From Synechococcus sp. WH 5701 (GTDB taxonomy: Bacteria > Cyanobacteriota > Cyanobacteriia > PCC-6307 > Cyanobiaceae), in the NCBI RefSeq assembly GCF_000153045.1, contig NZ_CH724159.1, positions 1,289,556-1,353,555 on the forward strand: a DNA stretch of 64,000 nucleotides, given 5' to 3'. The position numbers were made by a program, and so were the translations under genes. This document shows, one piece after another, positions 43,045 to 47,973 of this stretch (the stretch's first letter is position 1; every line of letters begins with the position of its first letter). The notes below the pieces were generated by a model that made no database searches, was not told where the DNA came from, and saw only the letters and a program-made list of their open reading frames with translations.

Positions 43045-43299
43045 ATGAGCCAGGAGCAGCCCAAGAGCAACCTCCGCGGACGCTGGGTGGCGATCATCAC
43101 CGGCGCCCTTTCGATTTTGATCGGGGTTCTCTATCTCGGCCTGATCACGGTGCTCGACGCCCGGGGCCCCCTCCAGCCCCCTCCCCCCGAGGCCCTGGGC
43201 GTGGTGGCAGCTGCCGGTCCCGCCGGCGCTGCAGCGGCTCCACCACCCGGCGCAGGGCCACCTCCAGAAAACCGCTCAACGCCCCCTCCCGCCGGTTGA
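43045..43299 (+). CDS. 84-residue membrane protein overlapping a GTPase gene
   Basis: ATG 43045 follows a 102-base spacer. It has a short basic start (KSNLRGR), one helix (WVAIITGALSILIGVLYLGL), the conserved-looking ITVLDARGPLQPPPPEAL, then an Ala/Pro-rich tail. The N-terminal half resembles a conserved small picocyanobacterial protein. The last 155 bases run antisense to the 3' end of the DUF697-type GTPase, an unusually long convergent overlap, so the low-complexity tail may not be conserved. Confidence 0.65.
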   Translation: MSQEQPKSNLRGRWVAIITGALSILIGVLYLGLITVLDARGPLQPPPPEALGVVAAAGPAGAAAAPPPGAGPPPENRSTPPPAG

Positions 43300-44737
43300 G
43301 GTCGTACTGACGGCGCACCACCTCCTGCAGTCCGCCATCGCCCCAGTCCTGGCCCTGCTCGAAGTAGGTGAGGAAGCTGAGGCCGGCAATCCGCGTCAAC
43401 CACGCGGCACTCACCCCCTGCACCGCCTTGCTGACCAGCAGCGCCGGCACGTTCAGGCTCAGGGCCGCCGTGATCAGCCCCAGCCCCCCCTTGATCACCC
43501 CAAGGCCCGCCAGGGTGCGGCCCACGGAGAGCGCCAGGTCCTGTCCCGCCTCCCGCGTCAGCATCACCCCGTAGACACGGCCCAGCTCCACCACCATCTG
43601 GGCGTTCACCGCCGCCGTACCGAGCAGATCCACCACCGGCAGGGGGTTCACCACCAGCACCCCGGCACCGATCCACATGTAGCGATCCACAATGACCTCC
43701 CCGTCCTGGCGCCGCTGGCGCGAGAGCAGGGCACGGCTGGCGTCACTGAGGCGCTGGCTCTGCAGCAGGATGTTGTCCGCGATCAGCTCTTCGCCGTCCT
43801 GGTGGAGCACCTCCGAGAGACGGCGCAGCAGGGCCTCAACTTCCGGACCAGGCTGAAGCGGTCGACCACCAGGCCTGGGGATCGACTGGGGCGCCGCTGC
43901 GGCGGGGATCACGTCCTCGGTGGCGATTCTGCCGGCACAGCGCTGGCGCAGCAGGGCCAGAAGCCGCCGCTCCTCCTCCTCGCCACGCAGGTCGCACTTG
44001 TTCAGCACCAGCACCAGGCGCTTGCCCAGACTGGCTAAGGCCTCGAACACCTGGAACTCCGCGGCGCGCAGATCGCCATCCACCACGAGCACCAGCAGAT
44101 CGGCCCGGGCCGCCTGCGCGCGGGCCTCCCGCTCCCGCTCCTGGCCGTCGCGACCCGATTCGAGAATGCCCGGTGTATCCACCAGTTGCAGCCCCCGCTG
44201 CAAGCCCTTCAGGCGTAACCGGTAGGTGTGGCAGGTGGTGGTGGAGCCCATCGCGGCCCCCACCTCCCCCACCACCTGCTGGAGCAGGGCGCGGATCAGA
44301 GAGGTCTTGCCGGCGGAGCCACTGCCGAACACCACCAGCACCAGATCGCCGCGGGAGAGTTCCGCCTCCACCCGGTCGCGCTCCTGGCGCAGGGCTTCGC
44401 GGGCCACCGCATCGCGTACCCGCTCCAGCACCGGATCAATGGCACGCAGCTGCTGACCGGCCGCCTCCTGGCGGCTGCTGGGGGCGGGGAGGGGTTGGGT
44501 GCCGGGGCCAGGGACATTCCTGGGATTGCGCCAGGCCCGCAGCCAGGGCCAGGCCAGGCGCAGGAGAAGCACAGCGCCGCCGCCCAGCACCAGCAGCAGC
44601 AGCGGGCCCACCAGGGCCGGTGGCAGCAGGTAGCTGAGCTGCCACACCAGGTTGTTGAAGGCCTGCAGCAGCAGCGACAGCGCCACGATCACAGCCACCG
44701 CCGCCGCCGCCCAGATCCAGAGCCGCAGGCGAGGCAT
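43145..44737 (-). CDS. Membrane-associated GTPase with DUF697-like domain
   Basis: A 530-residue protein. Two N-terminal helices are followed by an Era/Septin-like G domain: G1 VFGSGSAGKTSLIRALL, G2 near GSTTTCHTYRL, G3 LVDTPGILESG, G4 LVLNKCDLRG. A C-terminal hydrophobic domain (VDRYMWIGAGVLVVNPLPVV onward) is like DUF697/YcjF proteins. Function is unknown; membrane or thylakoid organisation is a guess. Its ATG overlaps the stop of the PBP gene in TGATG form. The Gly/Arg/Pro-rich last 30 residues lie in the antisense overlap. Confidence 0.87.
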   Translation of the reverse strand: MPRLRLWIWAAAAVAVIVALSLLLQAFNNLVWQLSYLLPPALVGPLLLLVLGGGAVLLLRLAWPWLRAWRNPRNVPGPGTQPLPAPSSRQEAAGQQLRAIDPVLERVRDAVAREALRQERDRVEAELSRGDLVLVVFGSGSAGKTSLIRALLQQVVGEVGAAMGSTTTCHTYRLRLKGLQRGLQLVDTPGILESGRDGQEREREARAQAARADLLVLVVDGDLRAAEFQVFEALASLGKRLVLVLNKCDLRGEEEERRLLALLRQRCAGRIATEDVIPAAAAPQSIPRPGGRPLQPGPEVEALLRRLSEVLHQDGEELIADNILLQSQRLSDASRALLSRQRRQDGEVIVDRYMWIGAGVLVVNPLPVVDLLGTAAVNAQMVVELGRVYGVMLTREAGQDLALSVGRTLAGLGVIKGGLGLITAALSLNVPALLVSKAVQGVSAAWLTRIAGLSFLTYFEQGQDWGDGGLQEVVRRQYDLNRREGALSGFLEVALRRVVEPLQRRRDRQLPPRPGPRGEGAGGGPGRRAP

Positions 44738-46935
44738 CAGGGCTTCGCCGCGGGGGCGCCACGGCTCGGGGTGGCCTGACGCATGATGTCGCCCCAGAGA
44801 CCGGCGGCCAGGGCGCTGCTGCTGCGGGTGGGGCTGTTGTCGTCGTTGCCCAGCCAGATGCCCATCACCCAGTGACGACTGGGCTCGGAGCCGATGAACA
44901 GGAGATCCCTGGCCCCGTTGGTGGTACCGGTCTTGCCTCCTTCCTGTCCGCCGAGGTACGCCGCCCGGCCTGTGCCGGAGCGCACCACGGCCTGGAGCAG
45001 CCCCTGCATGCTGCGGGCCACCTCGGGCTTGAGCACGCTGCGGCCGGCCTGGATGGCCCGGTTCGGCTGATCGCCCTGGTTGCGCAGCTGGCGGCAGCGC
45101 TCGCTCTCGAGGCCCGCGCAGGTTTCGGCGTCAGTGAGGCGGCGGATGGTGCTGGGGGCATGCCAGACCCCGCCGTTGGCCACGGCGGCGTAGGCGGCGG
45201 TGAGCTCGATCAGCCGCACCTCGCTCTGGCCAAGAGTCAGGCCGGGCACCGGGCTGAGGCTGGAGCTGATGCCCAGATCCTGGGCCTGCTGCACCACCGC
45301 TTCCAGCCCCACCCGCCGAGCCAGGCGCAGGGCGGCGGTGTTGCTGCTGGCGGCGAAGGCCTGGCGCAGGCTGAGGCTGCCGCCGCAGCCACTGGAGAAG
45401 GACTGGCCGCGCCAGCTCAGGGGACTGCAGCTGATGGCGTCGCCGGGCTTGGCGCCCCGCTGCAGGGCCGCCAGATAGGTGAAGAGCTTGAAGGTGCTGC
45501 CGGGCTGCCGCAGGGCCTGGCTGGCCCGGTTGAACTGACTGGTGCGGTAGTCACGCCCGCCGGCAATGGCGATCACCCCACCGTTGCGGCTGTCCAGCAG
45601 CACCACGGCCCCCTCGCTCACCCCAAGCGCGGCGGAAGCGGCCAGGCGACGGCGCAGCTCCCGCTCCACCACCGCCTGCACCGGCGGATCAAGGTGGGTC
45701 TCCACCAGGAAATTCCCCTCAGCCGCCACATCCGCCCCCAGCAGCCGCTCCAGGTCAAGACGCACCTGGTCGGTGTAGTAGGGCGCAGGTCGCCGGCTGC
45801 CGCTGCGGCAGGCCTGGCTCCCCAGCTGAATGGGGCTGCGGCGGGAGCGGCGGGCCTGGTCGGCGCTGAGGCGGCCACTGTCGGCCATCTTCAGCAGCAC
45901 CACGTTCCGGGCCTCGAGGGCCGCCTGGGGATTGACGCAGGGATCATGGCCGTTGGGAGAGGGCAGCAGACCCACCAACAGGGCTGCCTCCTCCAGGCTG
46001 AGCTGGGCCGCCGGCTTGGCGAAGAAATGGCGGGCGGCGTCTTCGAAGCCCCAACCCACCCCCAGATACACCCGGTTCAGGTAGCTCAGCAGCAGGTCGC
46101 CCTTGCTGAAACGGGCCTCGAGTTGCAGGGCCACCATCAGCTCCCGCCACTTGCGGATCAGCGTTTCCCCCTGGCCCACCTGCTCTGGGTAGAGGCTGCG
46201 GGCCAGTTGCTGGGTCAGGGTGCTGCCCCCCTCCAGCACCCGGCCACCGAGCAGGTTGGTGGCCAGGGCCCGGGCGGTGCCGATCGGATCCACGCCGGGG
46301 TGCCACCAGAAGCGGCTGTCTTCACTGGCAAGGAGGGCATCCACCAGGGCCGGCGGGAAATCGGAGAGGGAATCGTTTTCGCGATGTTCGCTCGATTCGA
46401 CGGAACTGAGAGGCCGGTTCAAGCGGTCGTAGAGGGCGAGGGGACCTCGCACCGGCGCCAGGCTGCCCCTCACCGGGGTCCACAGGAAGGCCAGAGCCAG
46501 CAGCAGCAGCCCCCCCGAACCCACGCCCGCCAGAACCAGGGTGAGACCGCGGGCGAGCCGAAGTCCCCGGGGCATCGGCTTGCGCTCAAACACCAGCTCC
46601 GGCAACCCCGGCTGCTCGGGGGGGCCGAAGCGCACCACATCGCCATCCCGCAGCAGCAGCTCCCGGATCCGCTGGCCCCGCCAGAACAGCCCGTTGGTGG
46701 AGCCGCTGTCACGGATCAGCCACTGGTGGCCCACCGCTTCGAGTCGGGCGTGCTGCTTGCTGACAGCAGGGTGGTCGAGGCTCAGCTCCAGACCAGGATC
46801 TCGGCCAAGACGGACCAGGCGGCCGTGGAGCGCCATCCGGCGGGGGGGCTGGCCGCCGAGATGGATCTCGACCTGAGCGGCCGGCGGGCTCTCCAGCTCC
46901 ACCAAGCCCCTTTTCAAGCCCTCAACGGCGCTCAC
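44737..46935 (-). CDS. FHA-domain class A penicillin-binding protein
   Basis: A 732-residue bifunctional peptidoglycan synthase. An N-terminal FHA domain binds phosphothreonine peptides (VRLGRDPGLELSLDHPAVSK, then IRDSGSTNGLFWRGQRI). One membrane helix (LTLVLAGVGSGGLLLLALAF) follows, then GT51 glycosyltransferase (ASEDSRFWWHPGVDPIGTAR, EGGSTLTQQLARSLYPEQ), then transpeptidase with Ser in QPGSTFKLF, SSNTA and KTGTTNGARD. All catalytic motifs are intact. The cytoplasmic FHA domain suggests control by Ser/Thr kinases. It is coupled to the GTPase gene and overlaps lspA by 14 bases. Confidence 0.95.
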   Translation of the reverse strand: MSAVEGLKRGLVELESPPAAQVEIHLGGQPPRRMALHGRLVRLGRDPGLELSLDHPAVSKQHARLEAVGHQWLIRDSGSTNGLFWRGQRIRELLLRDGDVVRFGPPEQPGLPELVFERKPMPRGLRLARGLTLVLAGVGSGGLLLLALAFLWTPVRGSLAPVRGPLALYDRLNRPLSSVESSEHRENDSLSDFPPALVDALLASEDSRFWWHPGVDPIGTARALATNLLGGRVLEGGSTLTQQLARSLYPEQVGQGETLIRKWRELMVALQLEARFSKGDLLLSYLNRVYLGVGWGFEDAARHFFAKPAAQLSLEEAALLVGLLPSPNGHDPCVNPQAALEARNVVLLKMADSGRLSADQARRSRRSPIQLGSQACRSGSRRPAPYYTDQVRLDLERLLGADVAAEGNFLVETHLDPPVQAVVERELRRRLAASAALGVSEGAVVLLDSRNGGVIAIAGGRDYRTSQFNRASQALRQPGSTFKLFTYLAALQRGAKPGDAISCSPLSWRGQSFSSGCGGSLSLRQAFAASSNTAALRLARRVGLEAVVQQAQDLGISSSLSPVPGLTLGQSEVRLIELTAAYAAVANGGVWHAPSTIRRLTDAETCAGLESERCRQLRNQGDQPNRAIQAGRSVLKPEVARSMQGLLQAVVRSGTGRAAYLGGQEGGKTGTTNGARDLLFIGSEPSRHWVMGIWLGNDDNSPTRSSSALAAGLWGDIMRQATPSRGAPAAKP

Positions 46936-47401
46936 GGGGGCGTCCCTCCCAGAGGTCCAGGATCAGGCAGACCACCGCCACGTTGATCGCCACATCGGCG
47001 AGGTTGAACACCGGGAACTGGACGGGCACCAACTCAAGGAAATCGACCACGCCACCGATCCGCCAGCGGTCGAGGCCATTGCCCACGGCGCCCCCGAGCA
47101 AGGATCCGAGCCCCAGCCACTGCCAGCGCGGCAGAGAAGGATGGCGCTGGATCCACACCACCAGCAGCAGCGCCACCACCAGACTCACCACCCCCAGCCA
47201 GACGGTGTGACCGGTGAGCAGGCTGAAGGCGGCGCCGGTGTTGAACACCAGCCGCAGACGCAGGAGCCCCGGGATCAGCGGTTCCGCCAGGCCCGAAGGA
47301 AGAGCGGCCGTGGCCCACGCCTTGCTGAGCTGGTCGAGCACCACCACCAGCCCCGCCACGCTCCAGGCGAGGCGGCGACTGGAGCTCCCCGCCCCGCTCA
47401 T
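46922..47401 (-). CDS. lspA: Lipoprotein signal peptidase II
   Basis: A 159-residue aspartyl protease of the membrane that cuts the signal peptide of prolipoproteins after lipid attachment. Four helices; LDQLSKAWA, FNTGAAFSLL, GGAVGNGLDRWRIGGVVDFL (first catalytic Asp region) and FNLADVAINVAVVCLILD (second). ATG 47401 overlaps the bioY stop by four bases. The window's lipoprotein at 14204 would be a substrate. Confidence 0.95.
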   Translation of the reverse strand: MSGAGSSSRRLAWSVAGLVVVLDQLSKAWATAALPSGLAEPLIPGLLRLRLVFNTGAAFSLLTGHTVWLGVVSLVVALLLVVWIQRHPSLPRWQWLGLGSLLGGAVGNGLDRWRIGGVVDFLELVPVQFPVFNLADVAINVAVVCLILDLWEGRPRERR

Positions 47402-47973
47402 GGCTGCACCAGCAGGAGGCGGCGCAGGGGCCAGGCCAGCACCGCCACGCCGCAGCAAAGCAGCAGCTGGGGCAGCAACGGGCCGAGGCTGTAAGCGATC
47501 AGCAGATCGGGCAGACCATTGGCCCATCGGCCCGCCAGAGCTCCGAGCAGGAGGTTGGCGATGCCACTGAGCTGAATCACCACCAGCCCGAAGAAGGCAG
47601 CTCCCAGCAGGCGCAGCAGCTCACCCATCCCCTCCTGACGGGCCAGCCGTCCACTCACCCAGGCCGCCGGCACGAATCCAGCCAGATAGCCGAACCCGGG
47701 ATCCAGCAGGTAGGCCATGCCACCGCCGGAATGGAACACAGGCAGCACCAGCAGACCGAGGCTGAGGTAGGCGACCGCCGCCAGCAGGGCCGGCCTTGGC
47801 CCGCAGACCAGGGCCGTGAGCAACAGCGCCGGCACCTGGGCGGTGACGGGCAGGTCGAGAAGGCGCAGTCCGCCCCCCGCAAGGGGCAGGGGAACAGCGG
47901 CCTGGATCAGACCCCCCATGATGATCAGCAGCAGCCCGACAAGGGCGCCACTCCAGTTGGCTAAGGCCCGCAA
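47398..47973 (-). CDS. bioY: Biotin transporter BioY
   Basis: A 191-residue S-component of the ECF type that binds and imports biotin. Six helices; the signature is visible in LLDLPVTAQVPALLLTALVC and GLLVLPVFHSGGGMAYLLDP, then GFGYLAGFVPAAWVSGRLA. The start appears to be TTG 47973, as no in-frame ATG precedes the first helix. An ECF ATPase pair is not in the window. It diverges from sipA and is coupled to lspA. Confidence 0.92.
   Translation of the reverse strand: MRALANWSGALVGLLLIIMGGLIQAAVPLPLAGGGLRLLDLPVTAQVPALLLTALVCGPRPALLAAVAYLSLGLLVLPVFHSGGGMAYLLDPGFGYLAGFVPAAWVSGRLARQEGMGELLRLLGAAFFGLVVIQLSGIANLLLGALAGRWANGLPDLLIAYSLGPLLPQLLLCCGVAVLAWPLRRLLLVQP

Follow-up and report, generated by a model that had tools for sequence, protein, structure and literature searches.

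Wall synthesis in actinobacteria is controlled by the Ser/Thr kinases PknA and PknB together with the forkhead-associated (FHA) proteins FhaA and FhaB. To our knowledge, the regulation of class A peptidoglycan synthases in cyanobacteria is poorly known. The 64,000-nucleotide (nt) stretch of Synechococcus sp. WH 5701 analyzed here (the window) encodes a class A penicillin-binding protein (PBP) with an N-terminal FHA domain, followed by a DUF697 membrane GTPase. Its likeness to the actinobacterial system would lie in a membrane Ser/Thr kinase-like protein, encoded at an unlinked locus (L124), and an FHA reader that both act on peptidoglycan synthesis. It differs from that system in three respects: the synthase itself carries the FHA domain, no PASTA repeat is matched in the kinase, and the kinase and reader genes are unlinked. 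In a profile search, the FHA domain of the PBP scores weakly as FhaB-like. Across the host family, the active site of the L124 kinase survives together with the PBP, suggesting that the two belong to one signaling line.

The PBP gene (44737..46935, minus strand, as are all genes of its row) encodes 732 amino acids (aa) from a GTG start. As the first-pass annotation had described, the FHA domain (residues 41-104; 46624..46815; Pfam FHA 60.4 bits, cut-off 20.7) stands ahead of a membrane helix (residues 133-151; 46483..46539; hydropathy peak 2.35). The glycosyltransferase domain (residues 175-350; 45886..46413; Pfam Transgly 8.2e-51) and the transpeptidase domain (residues 442-676; 44908..45612; Pfam 2.9e-30; SxxK at S480, SxN at S530, KTG at K668) follow. 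Because the hydrophobic segment comes after the FHA domain, the expected topology places the FHA domain on the cytoplasmic side of the membrane and the enzyme domains on the outer side. Both enzyme domains are present with the catalytic Glu, SxxK, SxN, and KTG of a class A PBP, and E205, S480/K483, S530/N532, and K668-T-G are found in all 16 linked homologs. FHA domains bind phosphopeptides through the residues GR, SxxH, and NG. Besides its Pfam score, the domain has invariant binding-residue columns: all 93 homologs compared carry G44, R45, H62, N81, and G82, and 92 of them carry S59. Across this set, both the FHA contact residues and the catalytic motifs are kept, apart from isolated departures in some of the wider rows. 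The PBP resembles the PBP1a family (TIGR02074) in its order of Transgly and Transpeptidase domains and in all catalytic motifs; it differs in its N-terminal FHA domain, and its 450 bits are below the family cut-off of 508.75.

The host family was surveyed in 201 genomes, and 95 of them were PBP-positive (PBP at at least 59% identity). FHA proteins occur in 100 of the 201 genomes, which include all 95 PBP-positive ones and five more, and the linked PBP is the sole FHA protein in 63 of the 95. In strain WH 5701, three kinase genes score above the Pfam cut-off, and there are three FHA proteins. Kinase co-occurrence was counted in 198 of the genomes (three unlisted ones were dropped), restricted to those at least 90% complete. 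A Ser/Thr kinase over the cut-off was found in 75 of 76 PBP-positive genomes compared to 6 of 54 PBP-negative genomes. The contrast holds in genomes of 2.0 to 2.8 Mb (40/41 compared to 6/21).

The L124 protein (L124:1327-3336) is a 669-aa membrane kinase-like protein. Its kinase domain is N-terminal, a single clear membrane segment lies near residues 324-342, and the C-terminal part has no Pfam match. The kinase domain is of Hanks type (Pfam Pkinase 63.5 bits, cut-off 31.7), and the protein is not a PASTA kinase, with no PASTA match at E <= 0.001. It is present in 110 of the family genomes, including 91 of the 95 that are PBP-positive and 19 that are PBP-negative; the four PBP-positive genomes without it are 73-82% complete. 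In the own genus, a cysteine-synthase-like gene (L124:182-1336) precedes the kinase-like gene with a TGATG-type 1-nt overlap; no such gene was found next to the kinase gene in the sampled loci of genera g5, g6, and g100.

Survival of the kinase active site is correlated with the PBP. Loci were compared from 69 of the 91 PBP-positive genomes and 18 of the 19 PBP-negative genomes (without G343, a weak match), and G308 (78% complete, with the GTPase also missing) was set aside from the PBP-negative count, leaving 17. All 69 PBP-positive loci keep the full set of catalytic HxD Asp, Asn, and DFG Asp, compared to 1 of 17 PBP-negative loci (2 of 18 with G308). In the PBP-negative loci the C-terminal part persists, and no kinase domain is left in 7 of the 17. 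In g9 the His and DFG are lost. Loci of g100 either have His for the Asn and DGG or EGG for DFG or lack the domain entirely, and those of g6 either have Thr or Ala for the Asn or lack the domain. Three g9 genomes have lost this PBP and kept the second FHA-PBP, and their L124 kinases are damaged. The contrast between kinase and PBP is also seen within g9 and g100. Flanking genes match in 15 of 15 locus pairs compared, which supports orthology of the loci, and, when mapped on a tree of the C-terminal part, the PBP label changes five times (four to five in bootstraps, at least two forced). The ratio of kinase to C-terminal identity drops clearly only in g9 (0.80-0.83), with no clear drop in g6 or g100. 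It was therefore set aside as a measure of decay, and the case for decay rests on motif and domain loss. In genomes that lack the FHA-PBP (L257, L259, L261-L265), the C-terminal membrane part is also found by itself, at about 305-371 aa; because it survives alone there, it must be useful in its own right.

The PBP is the third gene of a row, bioY-lspA-PBP-GTPase, and its two upstream genes had escaped the first reading of the sequence. The row begins with bioY (47398..47973; biotin transporter S component; Pfam BioY 5.8e-27), which has the same position in relatives and an uncertain start codon. The lipoprotein signal peptidase gene lspA (46922..47527; Pfam Peptidase_A8 1.2e-35; TIGR00077 over cut-off) is next. 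Its open reading frame (ORF) overlaps the PBP start by 14 nt, and the true lspA start is probably inside the ORF. Junction types and upstream genes were read in the 30 best loci of the family, and lspA and bioY are directly upstream of the PBP in all 30. In 89 of the 95 PBP-positive genomes, the GTPase gene follows the PBP on the same strand at a distance of at most 400 nt, so the linkage in close relatives on which the proposed pairing depended was borne out; this adjacency is not chance. Among the six genomes not scored as linked, G285, G299, and G278 (L046, L050, L051) have the start of the GTPase directly behind the PBP before the contig ends; the others are G293, G319, and G361. The layout expected of co-transcribed genes, on which the first reading relied, is supported.

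Both ORFs end and begin where they had been placed, and the PBP stop overlaps the GTPase ATG in a TGATG joint (44735..44739; CCCTGATGCC), with the A common to TGA and ATG. The joint itself is only partly conserved. In the family, 15 of 30 junctions are of TGATG type, 6 are 4-nt overlaps at an ATG or GTG, and the rest are spaced or unsure. The base rate was taken from 170 codirectional neighbor pairs of the own genome and is rough, being based on home-made ORF calling; it gave possible 1-nt overlaps in 12 pairs and possible 4-nt overlaps in 25. The TGATG joint is near chance for this genome and was ruled out as special evidence. Outside the family the GTPase is mostly unlinked. Among 55 genomes, sampled mostly at one or two per family, same-strand lspA is upstream of the FHA-PBP in 23, bioY is upstream in 20, and a closely spaced GTPase is downstream in 4 (L191, L174, L066, L105). 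In 80 named loci, the PBP is within the flank in five and on the same strand in four (for example Microcoleus vaginatus, L287).

In a tree of 93 FHA-PBP sequences (midpoint root for drawing only), the linked PBPs group as a single clade, and the second FHA-PBP is on a long branch with unsure placement. By this tree, the PBP is a vertical ortholog of a cyanobacteria-wide FHA-PBP. Recent insertion of the PBP between lspA and the GTPase was considered and ruled out by this grouping, and it is also countered by the recurrence of the bioY-lspA-PBP order in distant families. The simplest reading is that the bioY-lspA-PBP row is old, that the GTPase stands at its end in some lineages, and that this family has preserved the complete row. 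Outside the family (L066, L174, L191), bioY can have a biotin-synthase-like gene (BioB by sequence) ahead of it, which places biotin genes and lspA-PBP in one row there. No paper on the FHA-PBP/GTPase pair or on the bioY-lspA-PBP-GTPase row was recognized, in a search that left most of the subscription literature outside.

DUF697 GTPases combine a P-loop GTPase domain with a DUF697 domain behind it, and the fourth gene of the row has this layout (43145..44737; 530 aa from an ATG start; P-loop GSGSAGKT at residue 138, DTPG at 187, NKCD at 246). A hydrophobic hairpin at residues 6-59 (44561..44722) is followed by the G domain at about residues 130-317 (43787..44350; Pfam MMR_HSR1 2e-16 over residues 135-247) and by the helical DUF697 domain at residues 325-483 (43289..43765; Pfam 177.2 bits, cut-off 27.7). 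The C-terminal domain, described earlier as hydrophobic, matches DUF697; the clearest membrane segments by hydropathy are N-terminal (residues 6-24 and 41-59) and had been missed. The structure model (pLDDT 71.2, pTM 0.43) places helices at residues 3-37 and 40-70 and is firm only for the Era-like G domain, which matches Era 3iev_A (Z 17.9; root mean square deviation 3.0; 167 aligned). Foldseek matches of the whole model to dynamin-like and IRG proteins are weak (TM-scores 0.2-0.3 by query length), whereas membership of the dynamin superfamily would call for a dynamin fold across both G domain and stalk. LeoA, IIGP1, and mitofusin, which are among the top rows, also have helical or membrane parts beside the G domain. 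Unlike with those proteins, the solid structural match is to the G domain alone. The best family match is the slr1306 family (NF049994; 224.4 bits), which has the same layout. The score is far below the curated cut-off of 490, so an slr1306 ortholog was ruled out, and the protein belongs to its own class-wide best-match group. The paralogs L002 and L003 score 104.1 and 114.6 bits against NF049994. By the title of Zhang et al. (2008), as cited in PMC5472144, slr1306 is a putative CO2-concentrating component.

A role of the GTPase tied to this PBP, as first proposed, is not supported. In a phylum sample of 194 genomes, with class membership taken from kinship labels, the GTPase is found in 89 of the 89 genomes of the class and in none outside. 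Among family genomes at least 90% complete it is found in 129 of 130, and the only exception, G361, has the PBP. It directly follows lspA and/or bioY in 20 of 20 PBP-less family genomes examined (lspA labeled in 18, bioY in 18). In 22 loci outside the family, no conserved neighbor indicating function was found beyond the bioY-lspA-PBP set. Because it is kept also in genomes without the PBP, the protein appears to belong to the core set of oxygenic cyanobacteria as a membrane GTPase in its own right, and its function would not require this PBP. The paralog at L003:952-2361 is a DUF697 protein with no detectable GTPase domain, and its gene is followed directly by a photosystem II D1-type gene. 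A small plus-strand ORF without a Pfam match (43045-43299) overlaps the GTPase gene at its 3' end, and a CRR42-like gene is present within the window.

Taken together, the explanation we consider best is an old envelope row in which the FHA-PBP reads the output of the L124 line and the GTPase is separate, and as a whole it seems to us about evenly balanced between right and wrong. The L124 protein would sense the envelope through the part beyond the membrane, and this dedicated membrane Ser/Thr kinase-like protein would make phosphothreonine, directly or indirectly. The cytoplasmic FHA domain would then dock the class A PBP onto the phosphothreonine, and docking may recruit or activate the peptidoglycan synthase. 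The GTPase would be made together with the PBP and function separately. The data show the comparative pattern, namely architecture, linkage, vertical descent of the PBP, conserved FHA residues, and joint survival of the kinase active site with the PBP; phosphorylation, docking, recruitment, and sensing are inferred from it. Ser/Thr kinase control had been offered as a possibility; comparison lends it more support than a sequence-only reading could know, and this support comes from an unlinked gene and not from the coordinates of the PBP and GTPase.

Several points weigh against this explanation. As aligned, the VAIK Lys of the L124 kinase is Arg in 68 of 69 PBP-positive loci, and the 69th and two other misframed rows also read ALR at this site. 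The glycine loop is degenerate in the family, whereas wider homologs are canonical, most with Lys. Because of these two features, L124 may have weak kinase activity or be a pseudokinase. A pseudokinase scaffold, in which the FHA-PBP system needs an ATP-binding kinase fold but no catalysis and another kinase supplies the phosphate, would fit them; however, a pure scaffold need not keep the HxD Asp, Asn, and DFG Asp in every PBP-positive locus, and we consider it rather unlikely. Losses of kinase and PBP cluster in small genomes, only about two to five loss events are independent, and G272, and likewise G308, keeps an intact L124 kinase without the PBP. Because of this clustering, shared streamlining is a confounder and the main alternative: the four membrane or envelope genes would be plainly co-regulated on one transcript with no functional pairing, and the kinase-PBP correlation would reflect gene reduction in reduced lineages. 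Overlaps of 1 and 4 nt are common in this genome, signaling genes are reduced in marine lineages, and PMC2176072 quotes a near-perfect correlation of FHA domains and kinases across bacterial genomes. This alternative is tempered by contrasts that persist at similar genome size and inside g9 and g100, and by the L124 gene not being simply deleted, since the C-terminal part stays while the kinase part goes; on balance it is rather unlikely.

The kinase and PBP genes are not neighbors. The conserved adjacency of PBP and GTPase does leave room for a link between those two. Under such a link, the pair would be one functional unit, with the GTPase placing or switching the PBP. The direct adjacency in nearly all PBP-positive family genomes, the overlapping junctions, and the same order with close spacing in a few outside lineages and in four named loci agree with it. 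Nevertheless, the GTPase is present in all sampled class genomes, including PBP-less ones where it follows lspA and/or bioY, and outside the family lspA-PBP linkage is commoner than GTPase linkage. The coupling is a conserved layout and not a demonstrated partnership, and a single unit is quite improbable. FHA reading is also not unique to the pairing of L124 with this PBP. A second, faster-evolving FHA-PBP in the own genome (L118:5763-12589; C9 near 1603786) is head to head with a small FHA protein, another kinase, a VWA protein, and a PP2C-type protein. This locus resembles a phosphorylation triad of the TerY type. Kinase and FHA matches are close to the second FHA-PBP in other family genomes as well.

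The general correlation of FHA domains and kinases is already known; the new part is the specific pairing of L124 with the FHA-PBP and the stepwise decay of the kinase. In a 2025 review of cyanobacterial Ser/Thr phosphorylation (PMC11863333), the terms penicillin, FHA, peptidoglycan, and cell wall are absent from the main text. In the larger-genome members of the family, a single kinase-like receptor in the membrane may signal through a single FHA domain, in a closed line, straight to a class A peptidoglycan synthase; where the synthase is lost, the receptor would shed its kinase half and keep the membrane and C-terminal, probably extracytoplasmic, part. We offer this tentatively, at somewhat less than even confidence. 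Separating the PBP from the GTPase leaves the latter standing out as a core cyanobacterial membrane GTPase. The proposed pairing points to a single kinase and a single reader in organisms where kinases and readers are both very scarce, and the L124 loci offer a natural series of receptor decay.

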